Shown piece after piece: positions 10,666-20,598 of a stretch of DNA of 43,299 nt. Both the position numbers and the translations under genes were made by a program. Position 1 is the stretch's first letter, and the number at the start of each line of letters is the position of its first letter. The DNA lies in the NCBI GenBank assembly GCA_022763385.1, contig JALEGQ010000106.1, forward strand, positions 1 through 43,299. The letters run 5' to 3'. Source of the DNA: a bacterium (lineage in GTDB: Bacteria > Bdellovibrionota_C > UBA2361 > RFPC01). The notes under the pieces were generated by a model, which was not told the DNA's origin, made no database searches, and was given only the letters and a program-made list of their open reading frames with translations.

Positions 10666-10949
10666 GTCTTTCTCCTCGCTGAGGACGGCGAAACGGTGCT
10701 CGCCATTCGATTAAGGTGCTAATAATATTTAGCTTTTTATGATCCACGGCTCTCTGTTGGTATCGTGTTCTCCATCGATCTGTGGCATTTCTAGCCCCTT
10801 ATGCCTTCCGATAGAGAATCATGTTGTATATGGTCCTATTCTGACAATGCCCCAATTTCCGAGGAGCGGTGTCAGGTACGACGCAAAATTACCGAATATT
10901 TTCAAAGAGTACCTCTTTCCGGGGCTCTACTATAACATGGTTATGGAGT
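10666..10949. promoter_or_regulatory. Divergent promoter region, mepM-like / ruvX operon
   Basis: A 284-bp gap separates the divergent mepM-like and ruvX operons. On the plus strand TATAAC (10931-10936) lies only 13 nt before the chosen ruvX ATG, so a transcript from it would have almost no leader; no good -35 precedes it. The minus side is AT-rich near 10723-10740. CTGACA (10850-10855) and TGTCAG (about 10870-10875) form a 6-bp inverted repeat. I see no gene here. Confidence 0.35.
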
Positions 10950-11432
10950 ATGAGTCGGTTCTTGGCGCTTGATATCGGGTCTCAGCTCGTTGGATATGCG
11001 GTTTTTGAGGGTGATCCCGCCCGGTGTTCGCAAAAAGGGGCCTTTTCGCGTCCCCAGAACCGGGCCCAGCGGGAGATTCTTGAACTTCTCGAGGAGCAGG
11101 AGATTTCAACCCTTGTCATCGGAATTCCGCTCGGTTCAGATGGTGGATACTCCGCTCAGGCTGAGGATGCCGTACAATTTTGCCGAAGGCTTTCTCGGCG
11201 GTGTTCCGCAGAGCTGTATCTCGTTGATGAGTCGTTTAGTACTCAGGTGGTATCTGAGAGAGAAGAGCTCTCTTCGGCTTCGGAGCGGCAGAAGTGGAAG
11301 CGTTCTGGGGCGCTCGATGCGGAAGCCGCTGTTGTCATCGGTGAACGGTATCTGGCGTGGAAAGAGCGGCGAGATGAGAGCGATAAGCTGCTCTATCGAG
11401 TTATTCGGTTTTTGGAAGAGGAACCGTTGTAA
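10950..11432 (+). CDS. ruvX: RuvX/YqgF Holliday junction resolvase-like nuclease
   Basis: A 160-residue RNase H-fold protein of the YqgF family (Holliday junction resolution and/or 16S rRNA 5' maturation). The three acidic motifs are present: FLALDIGSQLVGYAV at the N-terminus, LVIGIPLGSDGG followed by a helix, LVDESFST, and the C-terminal ALDAEAAVVIGERYL with its Asp. Start ATG 10950 puts the first catalytic strand at the terminus, as in the family; an upstream in-frame start would add 27 unrelated residues. GGAG stands too close to this ATG to be a normal SD. mltG starts 9 nt downstream, a conserved neighbourhood in many bacteria. Confidence 0.85.
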   Translation: MSRFLALDIGSQLVGYAVFEGDPARCSQKGAFSRPQNRAQREILELLEEQEISTLVIGIPLGSDGGYSAQAEDAVQFCRRLSRRCSAELYLVDESFSTQVVSEREELSSASERQKWKRSGALDAEAAVVIGERYLAWKERRDESDKLLYRVIRFLEEEPL

Positions 11433-11441
11433 GGATCAGGT

Positions 11442-12440
11442 ATGTTTCGATTTTTTAAAGTTTTAGCCTATATCATCGTTCCGCTAGCGGTTGGCTTCGG
11501 TTCCTTTCAGTATCTGTACAATATCTTCTTTGTTCCCCTTGAGCCCGGGACGGCTCGTACTGAGGTCGTGCTCATTCGACCGAACATTCCGTTCTCGGAT
11601 GTCTGCGACCTCCTGGTGGAACGGGGAGTGACCCGAAAAACTCAGAGTCTGTGCCTCTATCGTCAACTTTCGGGAAGCACCGCTCCGGTTACCCCAGGAG
11701 AATATGAACTTTCTCCTGGGATGACTCCAAAGGAGATCCTTCAAAAGCTCCAGAGTGGAGAACGCTTTCTCCGGAAGGTCGTTCTTCCTGAAGGCTCAAC
11801 CATCGAGGAGCTCGATCTGATCTTCTCTGAGGCAGGGTTCTTTAAGCCGCGCGAGTTTGATGCGGCAGCTCGCGATCCACAGCTCCTCTCTCGCGCTGGA
11901 ATTGGAGCGGGAAGCTTTGAAGGGTATCTTGGCATGGGAGAGTATTCCTTTGCGGTTCCGGTAAAGCCGGTCGATGTGTTGTGGGAGCTGATCGAAAGTT
12001 CGGAGCAGCAGTGGGAGCCGCGGTTTACTCCGCAACTCGATGTGCTGCGCATCTCTCGGCACGAAATCCTGACCCTTGCCTCTATTATTCAGGAGACGAC
12101 AGGGGATCCAGAGAAACGCCGGATCGTTTCCTCCGTGCTGCACAACCGGCTTCAGAACGGAATGAGGCTAGAGTCTCCCGAGGCGCTCTCGTACGGTATC
12201 CGAGATTTTGATGGAACGATAGATGAGGAAGATAGGGCGAGCCCCTCTCCGTACAATACCTTTTTAAACTATGGACTTCCCCCGGGGCCGATTCTAAATC
12301 CCGGGAAGGATGCCATCGAAGCAGCGCTTTTTCCGGCAGAAACAGCGAATCTCTTTTATGGAAGAACTCCTTCCGGTGAGCTCGTGTTCTCTGAAACGGC
12401 AGAAGAGCACGAGCAGAAGATCTCACCAGAATCTGCATGA
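11442..12440 (+). CDS. mltG: MltG/YceG-family endolytic transglycosylase, divergent
   Basis: A 332-residue protein with an N-terminal TM segment (~5-26) and a YceG fold; family length is ~340. MltG cuts nascent glycan strands next to the inner membrane. The YceG core aligns without gaps (LTLASII...SSVLHNRLQNGMRLES...PYNTFLNYGLPPGPILNPG). The conserved E-K-E-T block that carries the catalytic Glu reads Q217-E218-T219-T220 here. The usual PDTY and TDPTV motifs are also changed (LGMGEYSF, ESPEALSYG). It may be inactive or use another acid. It sits between ruvX and the membrane gene, overlapping the latter by 4 bp (ATGA). Confidence 0.85.
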   Translation: MFRFFKVLAYIIVPLAVGFGSFQYLYNIFFVPLEPGTARTEVVLIRPNIPFSDVCDLLVERGVTRKTQSLCLYRQLSGSTAPVTPGEYELSPGMTPKEILQKLQSGERFLRKVVLPEGSTIEELDLIFSEAGFFKPREFDAAARDPQLLSRAGIGAGSFEGYLGMGEYSFAVPVKPVDVLWELIESSEQQWEPRFTPQLDVLRISRHEILTLASIIQETTGDPEKRRIVSSVLHNRLQNGMRLESPEALSYGIRDFDGTIDEEDRASPSPYNTFLNYGLPPGPILNPGKDAIEAALFPAETANLFYGRTPSGELVFSETAEEHEQKISPESA

Positions 12441-14185
12441 CGAGTGCTCAGAAGAAGAAAGAACACTCCGCCGGAGATCCGAGCCTGGATCTGTTGCGGA
12501 ATACCCTGAAGTCTCGTCAGTGGCGTGCTCGGCGAGAGCTTTTCCTCTTCTCTCTCGTGCTCCTTATCTTTGCCGTTGCGCTCAGTCTCTTGGCGCAGCT
12601 TTTCGGGTGGCTCTTTTTCTCCATCGTCCCTTTCCTCCTGACCCTTGGCATTGGCGGATCTGTTCTCTTTCGCTATTGGCGAAAAAGACGAGAGACGCTC
12701 TCTTCTGTTGCAGACGAGTGTGACCGATACTGGAATACGCAAAACGGTTACGCGGCCCTGCTTGAAGTGCTTCGGAGACAGCAGGAGGGAGAGCAAAGTG
12801 AAAAGTTTCTCTATATCTCTGCAGCATTACACCGCCTTCAAGAAGAGGGACTTGAGCCGCTTCCTCCTCAGCGGCTTTCTCGAGCAGCGAAGGTGCTCTT
12901 GAGTCTTATCTTTCTCTTTTCTTTGGTGGTTTTTCTCGCGTGGATCTTTTCTCCACCAGCGCCCCGTTCACTTCCATCGCTTCGGGAGAAGATGAAGGAA
13001 GAACTCCAAGAGCTCATGGAGGAAACGCCCGAACTTCCGAGTACCGTGCGTCAAGAGATCGCGGAGTTCTCAGAGATGCTCTCGGATGAAGATATCAGCC
13101 ACGAAGAGATCAGTGATGCCCTGGAGGGGCTTTCTCACCGGCTCGAAGAGACCGCAGAGCTTTTTGCCGCCCTCGCGGAAGAGAGTCCTTCACCCACACC
13201 AACTCCCGAAGCTTCTCCCGCTGAGCAGAAGGATGAAAAGAAGGAGGAGGAACAGAAAAAAGAGTCTGGGGAGAGCAAAGAAGAGCAGAAGCAGGAGCAG
13301 GAGAGCGCTGCTAAAAATGACTCGTCGGAAGGTCAAGAGCAGGGCACTCAGCCGCAGAACGGAGAAGATGCGAGTGAAGACGGAGGGGAGTCTTCTGGTG
13401 AAGGAGAGGGAAAAGAGGGAGAAGGAGAGCAGCCGGGAGACTCGGGTTCTTCTGGGAAGGGAACCGGAGAGGGCAGCTCTGATTCCTCATCTGACGAAGG
13501 AAAAGGGAATGAAGAAGGGGAAGGAGCTCCTGATGGTGCTGGAAAAGAGAGCGCCGGAGCAGATGGAGCGCCGGGTGAAGGTGAGTCGCCGACTTCGGGT
13601 TCGCTTGAGAAAGCCAGTGACCTCGTGAATGAACTTCGGAAAGAGTTTCAGCAGGCACAAGAGCAGCAGGAAGGAGGAGAGTCCGGAGAGCCAGGAGCTT
13701 CGGAGGGCGAAAACCCTGGAGGGGAGCAGGGGGGAGAAGATCCTTCCTCTGAGAAAAAAGATGGCGAAGACGAAGGAGCGGATCAGGGCCAAGAACAGGG
13801 CCAAAAGCCGGATGATACCTCAGACGGTCAGGAAAAGGGCGAGTCTGGAGGAGCGCAAGAGGCAGAAGAGTCTGCCCCGGATCAAAAAGAGAACAACCGA
13901 GCAACACAGAGCTCTTCGGGGGAGGGAGAGCGAACCCCACGAGAGGGGGGAGATGAAGGCGGATACAAAGAGGGAGGTTTTGGCTTTCAGGAGAAGCAGA
14001 TAGGATCCCCCGATGAGCAGATCGATGCGCGGTTTGCGGAAAAAACCGGCAAATTTGCTGAGAACACTGAGACGGTACGATCTCAGATGCAGGCGATCGA
14101 GGCAGAGCTCGCTCCCCCGAGTGAGTCGGACTCAGAGCAACGCCAGCGTATTCCGCTTGAGTATCAGAGAATGATGAATGAGTGA
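12437..14185 (+). CDS. Three-TM protein with long acidic low-complexity tail (DUF4175-like)
   Basis: A 582-residue protein. Two TM helices (~35-57 and ~60-80) form a hairpin, a cytoplasmic or periplasmic domain follows, and a third TM lies at ~148-170. After a Glu-rich coiled region (~185-245) comes about 270 residues of Glu/Gly/Ser/Gln/Lys low complexity (~250-520), then a conserved-looking end (GFGFQEKQIGS...IPLEYQRMM). The topology and the closing LEYQ-type motif resemble the DUF4175/low-complexity membrane proteins found next to MoxR and BatA genes; this is inference. Starts by ATGA overlap with mltG. The coding strand of the tail is almost pure purine. Function unknown, probably a scaffold for the MoxR/VWA system. 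Confidence 0.72.
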   Translation: MTSAQKKKEHSAGDPSLDLLRNTLKSRQWRARRELFLFSLVLLIFAVALSLLAQLFGWLFFSIVPFLLTLGIGGSVLFRYWRKRRETLSSVADECDRYWNTQNGYAALLEVLRRQQEGEQSEKFLYISAALHRLQEEGLEPLPPQRLSRAAKVLLSLIFLFSLVVFLAWIFSPPAPRSLPSLREKMKEELQELMEETPELPSTVRQEIAEFSEMLSDEDISHEEISDALEGLSHRLEETAELFAALAEESPSPTPTPEASPAEQKDEKKEEEQKKESGESKEEQKQEQESAAKNDSSEGQEQGTQPQNGEDASEDGGESSGEGEGKEGEGEQPGDSGSSGKGTGEGSSDSSSDEGKGNEEGEGAPDGAGKESAGADGAPGEGESPTSGSLEKASDLVNELRKEFQQAQEQQEGGESGEPGASEGENPGGEQGGEDPSSEKKDGEDEGADQGQEQGQKPDDTSDGQEKGESGGAQEAEESAPDQKENNRATQSSSGEGERTPREGGDEGGYKEGGFGFQEKQIGSPDEQIDARFAEKTGKFAENTETVRSQMQAIEAELAPPSESDSEQRQRIPLEYQRMMNE

Positions 14186-14230: not shown

Positions 14231-15223
14231 ATGCAACACAGTACACCGCTCTCTGCGACGATAGAGGGATTTCAAGAGGTGCTCTCACAGATCGAGGGCG
14301 AGCTACACGAATCAATTGTTGGACTTGATGAAGTTATTGGTGGCGTACTCGCGGGACTCTTCTGTGGAGGACACGTTCTGCTGGAAGGGGTTCCTGGGAT
14401 CGGTAAGACCTTACTCATCAAGAGTGTGAGTACCGTACTCGGTATTCATTACAAGCGAATCCAATTTACTCCGGATCTCATGCCGAGTGATATCACCGGA
14501 ACTGAGGTGCTCTCAGAAGATGAGAGCGGAAGACGAGCCTTCCAGTTCACCCCCGGGCCGGTGTTCTCAAATGTCATTCTCGCCGACGAGATCAACCGAG
14601 CCACACCGAAGACCCAGGCAGCGCTCCTCGAAGCGATGGCCGAAGCACAGGTGACGGTGCTCAATAAAACATACCCCCTTCCGCAACCTTTCTTTGTGCT
14701 TGCAACCCAAAATCCGATTGAACTGGAGGGAACCTATCCCCTTCCAGAAGCGCAGCTCGATCGCTTTCTTCTAAAACTCTCTGTTCCAGCGCCCTCTCCC
14801 AAAGAGTTGAAAGAGGTGTTAGTTCGAACGACCGGAGATCAGAAAAAAGAGCTCCACTCTGTTTTTCAAGGAGATGCTGTCGCGGTGATCGGTTCGATGA
14901 GAGAGCTCGTTCGACAGGTCGTAGCTCCAGAACCTATCCTCGACATTCTCGTGCGGGTCATCTCTCTTCTCCAACCCACTTCGGCAGAGGCGACTGAGTT
15001 TACGAAAAAGTATGTTCGCTTCGGTCCCGGTCCGAGGGGGGCTCAGAGCGTTTTGCTCCTGGCGAAGTTCTTTGCTCTTCGTGATGGCCGTATTCATATC
15101 TCGGTAGATGACATGAAAAGAGCGTGCATTCCAGCGCTTCGCCACCGAATCGTTTTAAACTTCCAGGCGGATGCTGACGGAATAACAACAGAGAGTGTGA
15201 TCGCCGACAGCGTGAAGCGTTAA
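14231..15223 (+). CDS. MoxR-family AAA+ ATPase
   Basis: A 330-residue MoxR ATPase, full length. It shows Walker A GVPGIGKT (53-60), the MoxR block FTPDLMPSDITGTEV, Walker B VILADEINRA (~116-125), sensor 1 ATQNP and the arginine-bearing PLPEAQLDRFLLK segment. These ATPases work as chaperones on VWA-domain partners, and four VWA modules are encoded in the three genes directly downstream. The preceding gap of 45 nt is the longest in the operon. DUF58 follows after 10 nt. The gene symbol is left blank because MoxR subfamilies have different names. Confidence 0.93.
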   Translation: MQHSTPLSATIEGFQEVLSQIEGELHESIVGLDEVIGGVLAGLFCGGHVLLEGVPGIGKTLLIKSVSTVLGIHYKRIQFTPDLMPSDITGTEVLSEDESGRRAFQFTPGPVFSNVILADEINRATPKTQAALLEAMAEAQVTVLNKTYPLPQPFFVLATQNPIELEGTYPLPEAQLDRFLLKLSVPAPSPKELKEVLVRTTGDQKKELHSVFQGDAVAVIGSMRELVRQVVAPEPILDILVRVISLLQPTSAEATEFTKKYVRFGPGPRGAQSVLLLAKFFALRDGRIHISVDDMKRACIPALRHRIVLNFQADADGITTESVIADSVKR

Positions 15224-15233
15224 GAGGCCCTTC

Positions 15234-16115
15234 ATGTTTGAGATTCTTGAGCCTCACGCACTGCGACAACTTGAATCACTCCAGCTCCGTTCTCAGCGAA
15301 AGTTTCTCGGGTCTCGTCAGGGAGGAAACGTCTCTCTTCGAAGAGGGCACGGAATTGAATTTGCAGACTATCGGCGGTATGAGCTCGGAGATGATCCTCG
15401 CCACATCGATTGGGGAGTATACGGACGCACCGATCGACTCTACGTCAAGCAGTTCCAAGAAGAACAAGATATCACCGTCTACTGTCTGCTCGACGGGTCT
15501 GCCTCCATGCACCATCCCGCTGAAGATCGGAAATTTCAGAAAGCCGCGGAGCTCGCACTCGGAGTATTGTACATCGCCCTTGCTCACCACGATCAGGTAA
15601 GCCTCGTCATCCCAGGAGAAACTGTCTTTGGCCCCCGTGCAGGAGTCGCCCTCATCCATGAACTCGCAGAGCTCTGTGAAGGGGTAGGACCAATTGCTGC
15701 GGAGAAGTCCGAGGAGGGATTCTCTCACTTCCTTCATACCGTGCAGTATCCCGGAGTCTGTCTTTTTATCTCAGATTTTCTCTTTCCGCTCCCTCATGTG
15801 CAGCACACCTTTGAGTCGTTGTACTCAAACAACCTCGACGTCATCGCAATTCAGGTGGTTGGAGCTCACGATGAGAATCCTGGCCTGTCGAGAGAGGAAG
15901 CGATCTTTGTTGATAGTGAAACAGGCGCAGAGCTCCCGCTCCGATGGTCTCCGAGTGTTGCCGAAGAGTATCGCTACCGGTTTGAAGTTCATCAAGCAGC
16001 GGTACGAGAACTTGCGGCAAAGTACCAGATTCGTTTTTTTTCTTGTGGCAGTGCGCAGGGAGTTCTTCCGTTCTTTTCTGAGACACTAGCGGGTTCGGGA
16101 GTCCTTCGCACATGA
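15234..16115 (+). CDS. DUF58 protein with intact MIDAS (VWA-like)
   Basis: A 293-residue DUF58 protein. It has the family signature FADYRRYELGDDPRHIDWGVYGRTDRLYVKQF and a VWA-like half with an intact metal site DGSAS (Asp near 87). No TM segment is seen, so it is likely cytoplasmic. DUF58 and MoxR genes are almost always paired; the ATPase is thought to act on the DUF58/VWA partners. Translation is coupled to the next gene by a 4-bp overlap (ATGA at 16112). Confidence 0.9.
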   Translation: MFEILEPHALRQLESLQLRSQRKFLGSRQGGNVSLRRGHGIEFADYRRYELGDDPRHIDWGVYGRTDRLYVKQFQEEQDITVYCLLDGSASMHHPAEDRKFQKAAELALGVLYIALAHHDQVSLVIPGETVFGPRAGVALIHELAELCEGVGPIAAEKSEEGFSHFLHTVQYPGVCLFISDFLFPLPHVQHTFESLYSNNLDVIAIQVVGAHDENPGLSREEAIFVDSETGAELPLRWSPSVAEEYRYRFEVHQAAVRELAAKYQIRFFSCGSAQGVLPFFSETLAGSGVLRT

Positions 16116-17968
16116 TCTCCCTCCTGAATCCCTTCCTTCTCTTCCTCGCGCTGCCGATCACGGGTCTTCTCATCTGGGCCTATCGGAAGAAGGGAGATGG
16201 AAAACGTTTTCAGTTCGGTTCGCTCTTTCTGCTCCAGCAGATACAAGAGCGCTCTGTGATTCGGAGACGTTTTTCGCCCCCGCCTCGGTTCTTTGTCGAG
16301 CTGCTCTTTCTTCTTCTTACCGTAGCTGCGCTCAGTGGGGTGATGCTCCGGCAAGAAGAGTCAGTTATTGTACTCCTCTTTGACAATTCAGAGAGTATGG
16401 GAGTTCGCAGAACCTCAGGAGAGAGCCGGTTGGAAGAGGGCAGGGTGCTCCTCACAGAGTGGATCGCCGATCGTGAGCAACGAGGGGGGGCTCCGCGGTA
16501 CCGAGTCTTCTCCCTCGCGCCTCAACCTCGAGAACTCTCTGACCTTCCGCTCTCAGCATCAGCCGCACGGACCGTGCTCTCGAAACTTTCGCCTGTTGCC
16601 GCAGAGGAGCAGATTGAAGCCGGGCTCCAGATCGCGGCTCGAACTTTGGGAGGAGAAGAGGTCGTTCTGGTTTCTGATCGAGCAGCGGGAGAGGTGGTAT
16701 TCTCAGAAGGACGGAGGTTTCACCACCTGTATGTCGGGAGCGACACTAAGAGTGATTCTGCGCTTCCAAAAAATATTGCCCTTGCTGGGGCCGAGTACCT
16801 CTCCTCTTCCGAGGCGATCGAAGTTCGTCTCTACGTCTCAGAAACCACCACGCCGAAATTTTCAGAGCAAGAAGCGATCGTCACCCTCTCTGAGGTCTCC
16901 GAGAAAGATGGGTCGATCGTTCTGAAAGATTTTCGGAGAAATCGGTTTACTTTTGAGCAGAGCGGAGAACACCGCTTCCGTTTTAAAAACATCCGAGATG
17001 CTCAATCGCTCCATATTCGAGTGCAATACTCCCATGATCTGCTCGCCGCAGATAACGAGATGTGGCTCAGTATTCGCCCCCACCGCCAGAGGATCGTGCT
17101 CTCTGCGGAGAGTTCTGCAGAAGAGCTCGGATTACTGCTCGGAGGAGGAAAGGAGATTCGGAGGAGTCCCCTCGTATTGCCACTTCCACCTGGGGAAGAT
17201 GGGAGTGTGTATATCTCGGAACGAAGAGTGGTACCACTGGAGAGGGAAGAGATCCCTCCAGGAATACACGTTCTTCCGCTCCGAAAGGGAGATACCGTTG
17301 AAGAGATCCTTCCCGTTCAAGCAGCGGGAAAACTGGTGCGTGCGCAGAGAGGTCACCCCGTGCTCGACTATGTTGACCTCCAGGTAACCGATTTTGGCCA
17401 AGTCTCTCCCCTGATCGTTCCGGAGTGGGGAGAGCCACTTCTTGAAACTGAGGCCGGTGTTATCGCCTATATCGGAGTTCCGGCAGAAAAGCCGGTCGTG
17501 ATAACGGGCTTTCAACTCTTTCCGCTCCGTGGGGAGGCTACCCCCTTTTCGACGATCTTTTTTCTTAACGCCATGAAATGGATAACGACGTACCTTCCAG
17601 ATGAGAGAAAGGAGTGGCGACCTGGAGGACCCCTTCCGGAACGCTTCTCCGCTCGCCAAGCGCTCTCCTTTGCCACTTCGTCAGATCAAGCGCTCCAACA
17701 GGTAGGAGAACGACTTCCCTTGGAACGCTCCGTACTCGTTTCTCCCGCGCGGGATGATGTCGAAGGTGAAATTCACTTCTTCTCACCTCAGGAATCTTCT
17801 CTTTCTCCACCTCCGCTCGGAGGACAACGGTTTTCTGAAGGGAGTGCGGCTTCACCGGAGCAAGAGCGGCCCCTTCTGCCGTACCTGCTCCTCCTCATTC
17901 TCGTCCTCCTCGCTGGAGATCTCGTGGCATCATCTCTCTCGCTCCGATATCGAGGGGAGGCCGCATGA
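16112..17968 (+). CDS. BatA-type membrane protein with VWA domain
   Basis: A 618-residue protein. The N-terminal ~85 residues are a BatA domain (MISLLNPFLLFLALPITGLL, then FGSLFLLQQI, TM2 at ~58-77). A VWA module follows with an intact MIDAS, DNSES at ~91. A long beta-rich region without catalytic motifs runs to ~580, and a single TM lies near the C-terminus (LLPYLLLLILVLLAGDLVASS). The bulk is thus predicted to lie on one side of the inner membrane. Bat proteins were named for aerotolerance in Bacteroides; the role here is unknown. Overlaps both neighbours by 4 bp, so stoichiometric expression with DUF58 and the next VWA protein is likely. Confidence 0.85.
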   Translation: MISLLNPFLLFLALPITGLLIWAYRKKGDGKRFQFGSLFLLQQIQERSVIRRRFSPPPRFFVELLFLLLTVAALSGVMLRQEESVIVLLFDNSESMGVRRTSGESRLEEGRVLLTEWIADREQRGGAPRYRVFSLAPQPRELSDLPLSASAARTVLSKLSPVAAEEQIEAGLQIAARTLGGEEVVLVSDRAAGEVVFSEGRRFHHLYVGSDTKSDSALPKNIALAGAEYLSSSEAIEVRLYVSETTTPKFSEQEAIVTLSEVSEKDGSIVLKDFRRNRFTFEQSGEHRFRFKNIRDAQSLHIRVQYSHDLLAADNEMWLSIRPHRQRIVLSAESSAEELGLLLGGGKEIRRSPLVLPLPPGEDGSVYISERRVVPLEREEIPPGIHVLPLRKGDTVEEILPVQAAGKLVRAQRGHPVLDYVDLQVTDFGQVSPLIVPEWGEPLLETEAGVIAYIGVPAEKPVVITGFQLFPLRGEATPFSTIFFLNAMKWITTYLPDERKEWRPGGPLPERFSARQALSFATSSDQALQQVGERLPLERSVLVSPARDDVEGEIHFFSPQESSLSPPPLGGQRFSEGSAASPEQERPLLPYLLLLILVLLAGDLVASSLSLRYRGEAA

Positions 17969-20598
17969 AGATGGTAAGTGTGGAATCGTCCATTCCGCTC
18001 GTGATCGCCGGCGTGGTGATGCTCCTCTGGCTTATCGGTTTGCTCTCATCCCGATTTCTGCCGAAGACGGGCCGTGTGTACTCCTTTTCACGCCGTATCC
18101 CTCCTTTTCTGGTCGTCCTGTTCACCGTCTTTCTCCTCTTTGCCGGAGCCAGTCCCTACCGTGAGATCGTTATTGAGCGGGACGCTCTGCATATCCTCGT
18201 TGACCTCTCTGAGAGCATTGACCGCACCGTGGTTGCACGGGAAGTAGACCGACTCGAAGAGCAGTTGCACGGTGCTCAGTGGGAGTACGAGGTCACGCCA
18301 TTTGCTGGCGAGGTTGGAGTACCTGCTCCCTCTTTTTCTCGCATTTCTATGGGAGGAGGTCTCGAGCGCGAACGAACGAATATCAGTTCCGCTCTTCGTC
18401 GAATGGTAGCCGATCGGACAAGCACATCAGATATCATTCTCTATACCGATGGAGTTGAGACCGATGGAGATCTTCGTGAAGTTGTTGATGAGCTTGTACG
18501 CCGGGGAGTTACCGTCTATCCCCAGCTTCCGCCTGACATACGAAAGAAAGAGGAGCGTTTTTTCGTTCAAGATCTCACCCTTCCCCTGAAGCGGAGTGCT
18601 GGTGAAACGATACAAGGAAGCATCTCGTTTCTTTCGACGAAGAAGCGAGATCTTTCGGGAAAGCTCTTTCTCTTTCGGAATGGAGAGCTTCTCTCTGATG
18701 AGGAGCTTTTGCTCCCCGCAGGGAGCTCAATAACCCGAGCGCTGGAGATCTCACCGAGTAGCCTCGAACAAGAAGAGATTGAAATACGGTTCGTACCATC
18801 GGAAGGTGAGGCGATCTCCCGCACCTGGCACGTTCACGCCGATGAAGGAGAGCAGGTGCTCTTACTCGGAAGCTCATCTGGTGAAACCCGTTATCTTCGT
18901 CAATCTTTTGAAGACCTTGGGGTACAGGTCTCTGAAGAGCTCTCACCGGAGGCAGGGGAAGGAGCGCTTGGGAAGTATGAAGCGGTTATCATCCATAACC
19001 TCCCCGAGAGATCGCTTCCAGCGCTCCTTCGCCGAGAGATGCGGAGCTACGTGGAGGCAGGAGGGCGGTTTCTCCTCATTGGCGGTGATCAATCATACGG
19101 ACTTGGGGGATACACCGGAACCGCCATTGATCGGCTCCTTCCGCTTGCTTCGCTCACTCCGAGAAAGGAAAAGAAGCGGGTGAACGTAGCCGTCCAGTTA
19201 GTGCTCGATAAATCCGCGAGTATGCGGTACGGGCAGAAAATTGAGTATTCCAAGCAGGCAGCGAGAGAGGTCATTCGGAGTCTAAAAGATCCCGACTATT
19301 TCGGAGTGATCGGCTTTGACACGACCCCCTTTATCGCCTTTCCGATCCGGCGCCTCGCAGAGTACCGCTCAATGGCGATTCAACGGGTCGGTACCCTCTT
19401 TGCCGCGGGGAAGACGAACCTCTTTCCCGCGCTTGATGAAGCACGGAGGGGCCTCGTGAATACCCCTGCAGGAAGAAAGCACATCATCGTGATGACAGAT
19501 GGAAAGATCCCCGATGAAGGACCACACTACCTACAACTCGTGCAACAGATGCGAGTACGGGGAATTACCGTCTCAACGGTGATGATGGGAACGGAAGCTG
19601 ACACTGAGCTGCTCCGGAACATGGCGCAGTACGGAGGAGGGAGTTTTTATCGCACGAAAGATCCCCGTTCGCTCCCAAGGATCTTTCTCTCTGATATCGA
19701 GGTAAGTACGAAAGAAGAAACGATGAAGGAGCAGGGAGAGTATCCCGTGCGCCGAAGTCGCTCGGCCGCACGGTATTCAAGCGACCTCACCACCTTTCCT
19801 CCGGTAAGAGGATTTGTTGAAACAAAGGCGCGCAAGGATGGGTATGTAGAGCTCGTTGTGACGGCTGCCGGGAAGGCCATTCCGCTCTTTGCCTCACGCC
19901 AGGTAGGAAAAGGAGAGACCTTTTCACTCGCCACGGATGCCAGCGGCAGATGGTCTGCACCTTGGGTTCGGTGGGAGAAGTTCCGTCAGTTTTGGCAAGA
20001 AGTCGTCCTCTCCCGATCGCCGGAGAGCGACTTAGCACGAAAATCAGGGGATGAAGCCGGTAGTGGCACGCTTGATTTTGATCTCCGATGGTTTTATCAG
20101 GGCGGAAACCTTATTCTCGATCTGATCCTGTATGAACCTGCTATGGGAGAAGTCTCCCTCAACGTACACTCCTCTCAGAGCTCCGAACCGGAAGAGGGAA
20201 GAAAATTTCGACCTGAACTGATAGCCCCCGGCCGCTATCAGCTCCGACTCCCAGAACCGCCATTTGGGGATCTCACCGTATCTGGAAACGTCGGAGAGCG
20301 ATCCTTCGGACCACTGACACTCCATACCAGCGGCGACGAACTCGATGAGCTTCGCCCCGTGGGTATCCAAAGAGTCCTCCTCTCCCAGCTCGCCCATCAG
20401 ACCGGAGGAGCCGTAAATCAACTTCCTCCAGGACTCTCCTCCGATGAGGAGGAAAGCTCCGGCTCCCAAACCGTTCAGCAAGAAAGTCTCAGCTGGCTCT
20501 TTCTCCTCCTCGCTCTTTTGACCTACGCCCTCCACATCGCCCTCCGAATAATTCGTCCCCGGGATGACTTTTCCCTTTTTCCTTTCGAAGGCACGTGA
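17965..20598 (+). CDS. Giant membrane protein: VWA - GATase-like - VWA
   Basis: An 877-residue protein. TM1 (~10-28) and TM2 (~45-62) are followed by VWA1 (~73-192, MIDAS DLSES at 80), an Ig-like beta region, a class I glutamine amidotransferase-like domain (~295-400, GGRFLLIGGDQSYGLGGY), VWA2 (~405-590, MIDAS DKSAS at 415, GKTNLFPAL, VMTDGK), a beta-rich domain and a C-terminal TM (LSWLFLLLALLTYALHIALR). The amidotransferase-like domain has no nucleophilic Cys at its elbow, so it is probably structural. Both metal sites look intact. Starts by ATGA overlap with the BatA-type gene (ATG 17971 is an alternative). Last gene of the tightly packed operon. Confidence 0.85.
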   Translation: MKMVSVESSIPLVIAGVVMLLWLIGLLSSRFLPKTGRVYSFSRRIPPFLVVLFTVFLLFAGASPYREIVIERDALHILVDLSESIDRTVVAREVDRLEEQLHGAQWEYEVTPFAGEVGVPAPSFSRISMGGGLERERTNISSALRRMVADRTSTSDIILYTDGVETDGDLREVVDELVRRGVTVYPQLPPDIRKKEERFFVQDLTLPLKRSAGETIQGSISFLSTKKRDLSGKLFLFRNGELLSDEELLLPAGSSITRALEISPSSLEQEEIEIRFVPSEGEAISRTWHVHADEGEQVLLLGSSSGETRYLRQSFEDLGVQVSEELSPEAGEGALGKYEAVIIHNLPERSLPALLRREMRSYVEAGGRFLLIGGDQSYGLGGYTGTAIDRLLPLASLTPRKEKKRVNVAVQLVLDKSASMRYGQKIEYSKQAAREVIRSLKDPDYFGVIGFDTTPFIAFPIRRLAEYRSMAIQRVGTLFAAGKTNLFPALDEARRGLVNTPAGRKHIIVMTDGKIPDEGPHYLQLVQQMRVRGITVSTVMMGTEADTELLRNMAQYGGGSFYRTKDPRSLPRIFLSDIEVSTKEETMKEQGEYPVRRSRSAARYSSDLTTFPPVRGFVETKARKDGYVELVVTAAGKAIPLFASRQVGKGETFSLATDASGRWSAPWVRWEKFRQFWQEVVLSRSPESDLARKSGDEAGSGTLDFDLRWFYQGGNLILDLILYEPAMGEVSLNVHSSQSSEPEEGRKFRPELIAPGRYQLRLPEPPFGDLTVSGNVGERSFGPLTLHTSGDELDELRPVGIQRVLLSQLAHQTGGAVNQLPPGLSSDEEESSGSQTVQQESLSWLFLLLALLTYALHIALRIIRPRDDFSLFPFEGT

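Follow-up and report, generated by a model that had tools for sequence, protein, structure and literature searches.

MltG is a bacterial endolytic transglycosylase that normally trims newly made strands of the cell wall, and what it does apart from catalysis is a recent open question. In Escherichia coli, a mutant of residue E218 serves as the inactive control of MltG, and the dead E218Q protein still lowers transpeptidation (crosslinking) by PBP1A/PBP1B in vitro (PMC8135044). In Enterococcus faecalis, normal growth requires the protein and not its activity: a second report describes that the dead variant E342Q restores wild-type growth and that the protein depends critically on its LysM domain (PMC12288455). 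The same report states that catalytic activity does affect cephalosporin resistance (PMC12288455), so MltG activity is not wholly dispensable in this organism. Both examples concern mutants made in the laboratory. Within the open-licence literature, we found no report of a natural MltG without the catalytic Glu, and none of the open-licence papers that we found linked MltG with MoxR.

Here we describe an mltG-like gene from a draft genome of the phylum Bdellovibrionota_C (assembly GCA_022763385.1). The window, by which we mean the whole stretch of DNA that was analysed, comprises 43,299 nucleotides of contig JALEGQ010000106.1, and the MltG-like protein encoded in it is called the window protein. 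The MltG family itself is already known; new here is a naturally Glu-less group of MltG orthologues, to which the window protein belongs.

Results

The window gene and its assignment to MltG

The window protein matched the PF02618 profile with 205.4 bits against a curated cut-off of 32.4, covering profile positions 2-273 of 275, and it matched TIGR00247 (endolytic transglycosylase MltG) with 137 bits against a cut-off of 103.4. Its catalytic helix aligned without gaps to the MltG proteins of Listeria, Acinetobacter, and E. coli; a blastn comparison of the motif DNA with E. coli gave chance matches only. The AlphaFold2 model of the protein (pLDDT 96.3, pTM 0.88) contained a helix at residues 206-219. 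The alignment behind the model consisted of the window protein and 74 of the 80 Glu-bearing MltGs described below, so the model shows that the sequence fits the MltG fold and not that the protein is stable. When the model was compared with the PDB using Foldseek, all ten matches with E values up to 0.001 were MltG chains, among them 4iiw (7e-21), 2r1f (1e-15), and 8yoa (6e-15). Going by homology to MltG, the predicted N-terminal helix presumably has a membrane role. No separate LysM match was reported for the window protein in the Pfam profile search; the limits of the LysM-like region were set by us. The features of the locus are listed in Table 1.

Table 1 Features of the mltG-like gene and of its neighbours in the window.
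Feature	Position	Strand	Basis
RuvX (YqgF), upstream neighbour	10950..11432 (ORF 10869-11432, likely start 10950)	+	PF03652, 79.8 bits for 10947-11429
mltG-like CDS, 332 aa + stop	11442..12440	+	clade-A MltG at RuvX-MltG-MoxR-VWA locus; PF02618, TIGR00247, synteny, tree
Predicted N-terminal membrane helix, aa 2-30	11445..11531	+	helix in AlphaFold2 model
LysM-like region, aa 40-109	11559..11768	+	model secondary structure and MltG homology
P-[DE]-T-Y block, here M165-G166-E167-Y168	11934..11945	+	alignment to 80 MltGs
Catalytic-helix block ASII-QETT, aa 213-220	12078..12101	+	codon reading and alignment
D-P-T block, here P246-E247-A248	12177..12185	+	alignment to 80 MltGs
Y/F-F-V block, here F305-Y306-G307	12354..12362	+	alignment
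582-aa protein between MltG and MoxR, second half rich in Glu/Ser/Gln/Gly	12437..14185	+	no Pfam family in profile search
MoxR AAA ATPase	14231..15223	+	PF07726, 212 bits
DUF58 protein	15234..16115	+	PF01882, 95 bits
BatA-like protein with VWA	16112..17968	+	PF07584 and PF13519
Large VWA-domain protein	17965..20598	+	PF00092, 82 bits

Loss of the catalytic Glu

The codons of the catalytic-helix block were gcc (A213), tct (S214), att (I215), att (I216), cag (Q217), gag (E218), acg (T219), and aca (T220). The corresponding stretch of E. coli MltG (NP_415615.1) is A-S-I-I-E216-K217-E218-T219, and the alignment equates Q217 of the window protein with E216, E218 with K217, and T219 with the catalytic E218. 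The codon reading and the gapless E. coli alignment therefore bear out what an earlier note on this DNA had stated, namely that both Glu of the E-K-E-T block are replaced and that a Glu stands only at the former Lys position. The codon at 12090-12092 (Q217) substitutes for the first Glu, and the codon at 12096-12098 (T219) for the catalytic one.

For comparison, a set of 80 MltGs (L079-L158) was found via peptide patterns from GLPPGPI and SRHEILTLA in a named genome collection. These were the best 80 by similarity to the window's family among the matches listed, a non-random sample that, by the record titles, covers many phyla but leans towards relatives of that family. One of them, L079, comes from the MAG 'Deltaproteobacteria bacterium isolate HTM.30' and does not differ in the tree from L017, the copy of the order member G025, which links the window's order to that record. 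In these best 80 retrieved MltGs, the column of T219 held Glu in 80 of 80, and the column of Q217 held Glu in 73, Gln in 6, and Gly in 1. It is thus the change at the second Glu that matters, and Gln at the first position is tolerated in other MltGs. The first Glu of the block was considered as the catalytic residue and rejected, because E218 of E. coli is the second Glu and Gln occupies the first position in 6 of the 80. AgmT of Myxococcus xanthus agrees with this numbering, as its E223 has been equated with E. coli E218 (PMC11444678). With Thr219, the window protein lacks the equivalent of E. coli E218 by which an MltG enzyme is recognized. Neither a Q-E-T-T motif common among active MltGs nor a catalytic Glu conserved at another position was found in the 80-MltG alignment, two outcomes that the earlier note had named as speaking against its reading.

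The same column lacked Glu at the same locus in all five genomes examined of the window's uncultured family (T, T, T, A, and V), the motifs being Q-E-T-T in the window, Q-Q-T-T in G002, E-K-T-T in G003, E-K-A-T in G004, and Q-K-V-T in G001. A sequencing error in one genome was rejected on this ground, since the Glu is also lost at this column in the four other genomes. The family proteins come from four genera and share 45-51% identity with the window protein; in the tree, the five Glu-less copies formed one clade (support 100/99), which makes a single ancestral loss the simplest reading.

Other active-site blocks and conserved columns

Three further blocks, P-[DE]-T-Y, D-P-T, and Y/F-F-V, are not retained in the window protein, where they read MGEY, PEA, and FYG; alterations of the first two (as PDTY and TDPTV) had already been pointed out. 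These blocks were taken as the substrate site from their conservation and from a prediction in PMC11533991, and Glu-bearing clade-B copies (see below) vary at some of them too. For the residues equivalent to Y/F-F-V, the pocket role is likewise a prediction in that paper, mapped here by alignment (PMC11533991). Among the best 80 MltGs, the D-P-T columns held D in 75, P in 69, and T in 76, and the middle P was replaced by E in all five family members. The column of V307 was changed in five of five members, and those of T167 and F306 in four of five each, compared with none of 18 order relatives at any of the three. Position 166, where most other MltGs have an acid, is occupied by Gly in each of the five members (L004-L007 and the window protein). 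At position 167, which lies on a predicted strand, Thr was found in 80 of the best 80 MltGs and E, T, E, D, and D in the family, the Thr belonging to G002.

These observations bear on whether the acid has moved, so that E218, or a new acid at position 167, would catalyse in a rearranged site; the earlier note had considered a shift by one residue. The window protein does carry a Glu immediately N-terminal to the position of the loss, and position 167, next to the common Gly166, is acidic in four of the five members. However, Glu occurs in the E218 column of the window protein only, the other four members having Q, K, K, and K; G002 keeps Thr at 167; and the D-P-T and Y/F-F-V blocks are altered too. 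Neighbouring side chains on a helix point in directions about 100 degrees apart, which disfavours a one-residue shift, as residues 218 and 219 lie on the helix of residues 206-219 in the model. We regard a moved acid as very unlikely, and the one-residue shift found no support.

Of the 45 columns with 90% or more conservation among the 80 MltGs, 9 differed in the window protein, compared with 0 to 6 in the 80 MltGs themselves and 1 to 4 in the 18 order relatives. This count proves nothing by itself and does not tell dead copies from live ones: ten Glu-bearing clade-B copies differed at 4 to 8 columns, and eight class-level clade-A copies at 1 to 15. The family is marked by which columns have changed, the catalytic one first, and not by their number. 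The G001 copy evolves fast (terminal branch 1.08) and its profile match ends at 253 of 275, both of which would be typical of a gene that is being lost; 13 of the 45 columns are changed in it.

The protein might instead still be an active MltG, in a branch where the Glu is dispensable and cleavage is substrate-assisted or weak and residual. The window protein retains YNTF and GLPPGPI, and the curated model TIGR00247 would name it an endolytic transglycosylase MltG, a label that would be an annotation trap. Against continued activity, variants with Gln or Ala in place of the Glu are the inactive controls for MltG of E. coli, B. subtilis, and E. faecalis (PMC8135044, PMC12288455), the E. coli position being the one that was mapped onto the window protein. 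We consider continued activity very unlikely; judging from its sequence, the window protein would be unable to cleave glycan strands.

Locus and synteny

RuvX was adjacent to MltG in all 17 order genomes examined, which identifies the Glu-less copy as the ancestral orthologue at its old locus. The window locus also has a divergent M23 peptidase, with a further gene beyond it that we take to be CinA. Matches to the 582-aa protein, with 22-41% identity, occupied the same place in 12 of the 17 genomes. MoxR followed MltG in 13 of the 17 (four of the window's family and nine from elsewhere in the order). Of the other four genomes, G005, G008, and G013 have contigs that stop less than 2 kb past MltG, and a stretch of 5 kb was available in G010, where no MoxR turned up. 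Beside the MltG genes of L080, L083, and L102, named relatives from other groups, none of the locus neighbours was found, and the RuvX-MltG-MoxR-VWA linkage is therefore a trait of the window's lineage.

All nine genomes outside the family with MoxR after MltG keep the Glu. The link with MoxR-VWA is thus older than the loss of the Glu, and a loss driven by the operon, which was considered as an explanation, is unsupported. The earlier note had also proposed a scaffold inside a VWA operon. The positional part of this proposal stands, as the gene precedes the MoxR/DUF58/BatA/VWA cluster, but the same order occurs with a Glu-bearing MltG in those nine genomes, so the operon alone does not explain the dead site.

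A second MltG in the genome and in the phylum

The window genome, a 3.07-Mb draft that is 86.5% complete, contains the second, canonical mltG for which a search had been suggested: it lies at C146:5500-6441 (L001) and has an intact I-E-R-E-T motif. A survey of 45 genomes of the phylum gave a PF02618 match in 43, and by tree and motif these MltGs fell into two clades. Clade A, which includes the window gene, lies next to ruvX in those order genomes that were examined; clade B, which includes the second copy, is monophyletic (100/100) and patchy in distribution. In G000, G002, and G003, clade B was found between two neighbour genes, presumably a nucleotidyltransferase-like gene and a yaaA-like gene, and not beside ruvX. 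Among the 50 genomes behind 50 of the 80 reference loci, 48 gave a single match, one gave two, and one gave an additional fragment below the cut-off, so two copies are not usual in those genomes. SLT-domain matches were present in all five family genomes, five of them in the window genome.

The Glu was kept in all 13 full clade-B copies and in 32 of 39 readable clade-A copies of the phylum, the clade-A counts omitting E. coli, all 13 clade-B copies, and the fragments G015_L045, G015_L046, G016_L044, G020_L043, G034_L195, and G034_L196. The seven clade-A copies without it, five from the window's family and those of G033 (Q) and G034 (T), correspond to three changes on the tree. The two copies outside the family read E-K-Q-A (L026, G033) and E-K-T-G (L028, G034).

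Loss of the Glu from clade A was seen in 6 of 12 genomes with clade B (G034 being scored as having clade B from L195 and L196, both N-terminal pieces) compared with 1 of 27 without it (Fisher p = 0.0017, ignoring kinship). Over 43 of the 45 columns, with 116 and 217 left out, the median number of changed columns was 8 in clade-A copies beside clade B and 1 in those without it (Mann-Whitney p = 2.5e-5, ignoring kinship). A phylogeny-aware pair test of clade-B presence against clade-A loss yielded only 3 supported pairs, too few to decide.

Several single loci deserve mention. In family f17 (L030, L188, L192, and L194), whose genomes have clade B, the clade-A copies retain the Glu but their D-P-T block is altered, which looks like an earlier step of the same erosion. 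G015:C136 (L045, L198) carries a clade-A fragment in which several residues are inserted into the helix directly behind the catalytic Glu; an in-frame TAG appeared in one search and not in another, and L045 was left out of the counts as a 142-aa piece, although its Glu is present. On both G034:C21 and G034:C65 (L195, L196), the N-terminus of a clade-B-like MltG lies near the contig end, with identical coordinates on the two contigs, possibly a duplicated assembly end.

In G004, whose bin is 94% complete, neither the PF02618 profile nor a clade-B protein query found a clade-B copy; of the genes that flank clade B elsewhere, the yaaA-like gene was not found and the nucleotidyltransferase-like gene gave a weak match only. 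These results are compatible with a true loss as well as with a gap in the bin. With a Glu-less clade-A copy and no clade-B copy found, G004 misfits a simple division of labour between the clades, unless its clade-B copy lies in the unassembled part.

Constraint and regional conservation

All five family copies were full-length open frames of 323-349 aa with no internal stops. Divergence at codon positions 1, 2, and 3 was 0.37-0.52, 0.26-0.39, and 0.60-0.71 among the five family members and 0.36-0.45, 0.23-0.32, and 0.61-0.72 among six Glu-bearing relatives. The third position was in excess in all ten family pairs, and neither a broken frame nor the equal divergence of the three positions that marks a pseudogene was found. 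These codon comparisons show that the family copies have been under protein-level constraint, though a little weaker than that on the Glu-bearing copies, as positions 1 and 2 diverge somewhat more in the family; with synonymous sites near saturation, they speak of past constraint and not of its present strength.

Slow pseudogenisation, in which the ancestral copy has merely been decaying since a second MltG became available and has no function of its own, has to be weighed here. It would account for the many changed conserved columns, most numerous in G001, and for the higher counts in clade-A copies beside clade B. It would also fit the identity of 46% between the window MltG and its same-genus counterpart, compared with 59% for CinA, 60% for M23, 61% for DUF58, and 74% for MoxR; however, other neighbours are about as low or lower (RuvX 41%, VWA protein 48%, BatA-like protein 33%, 582-aa protein 28%). 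Decay is opposed by the five intact frames spread over four genera, by their third-position excess, and by the retention of W191, N235-R236, N272-T273, and GLPPxPI in all five. We judge it unlikely.

Conservation differed along the protein. In the LysM-like region, which is ordered in the model, mean pairwise identity was 0.42 in the family and 0.41 in seven other order members, whereas it was 0.46 compared with 0.60 at residues 158-205 and 0.36 compared with 0.64 at residues 301-327. These values are comparable because CinA shows the two sets to be similar in depth, with identities to the window of 45-47% (G002-G004) and 44-46% (G005-G007 and G011). It seems that the putative binding region has been spared and that some stretches of the catalytic domain have been relaxed.

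Discussion

All five family genomes lack the catalytic residue, there are changes at substrate-site columns, and the window genome encodes a further MltG that is intact, findings that support the suggestion of a non-catalytic enzyme. We think it probable that the window gene is an ancestral MltG orthologue that has turned into a pseudo-transglycosylase and is kept for the non-catalytic role of MltG. Such a role fits the retention of the predicted membrane helix, the putative LysM-like region, and the overall sequence together with the loss of the acid, as in the dead E. coli and E. faecalis mutants. By analogy with these mutants, MltG would be kept for a second job at the membrane, where it would bind nascent glycan strands, penicillin-binding proteins, or both, and would damp or guide transpeptidation. 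The clade-B copy and SLT-type enzymes would do the cutting.

More tentatively, this reading may be extended to the whole family, in which a dead MltG heading the MoxR-VWA cluster would be devoted to regulating PBPs or the release of glycan strands by non-catalytic means. The second MltG would then do the cutting, and the G004 genus might have no active MltG. We see this extension as possible and rather doubtful. If it were true, a regulator dead throughout a family would be a natural split of the structural job of MltG from its catalytic job. The Glu-less lineage offers a natural separation-of-function set, for which the Glu-bearing paralogue in the same genome can serve as the control.

In comparison with the known MltG/YceG proteins (PF02618, TIGR00247; MltG of E. 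coli and B. subtilis, with the structures of Lmo1499, 4iiw, and of the E. coli protein, 2r1f), the window protein is alike in whole-length homology and predicted fold, and it has a predicted membrane helix and a putative LysM-like region. It differs in that the residue equivalent to E. coli E218 is Thr, the first Glu is Gln, and three further blocks are changed. The clade-B MltG of the same genome belongs to the same family and differs by having kept E-x-E-T, along with the variants AIDASIIYGI and YNTR. AgmT of M. xanthus, described as an MltG-family protein recruited to gliding adhesion complexes, retains the active-site Glu (E223), unlike the window protein (PMC11444678). The dead laboratory mutants of E. 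coli (E218Q), B. subtilis (E242A), and E. faecalis (E342Q) have lost the catalytic acid, as has the window protein, and those of E. coli and E. faecalis keep measurable non-catalytic effects; in contrast to these mutants, the loss in the window's family is natural, common to all five genomes, and accompanied by changes in other active-site columns.
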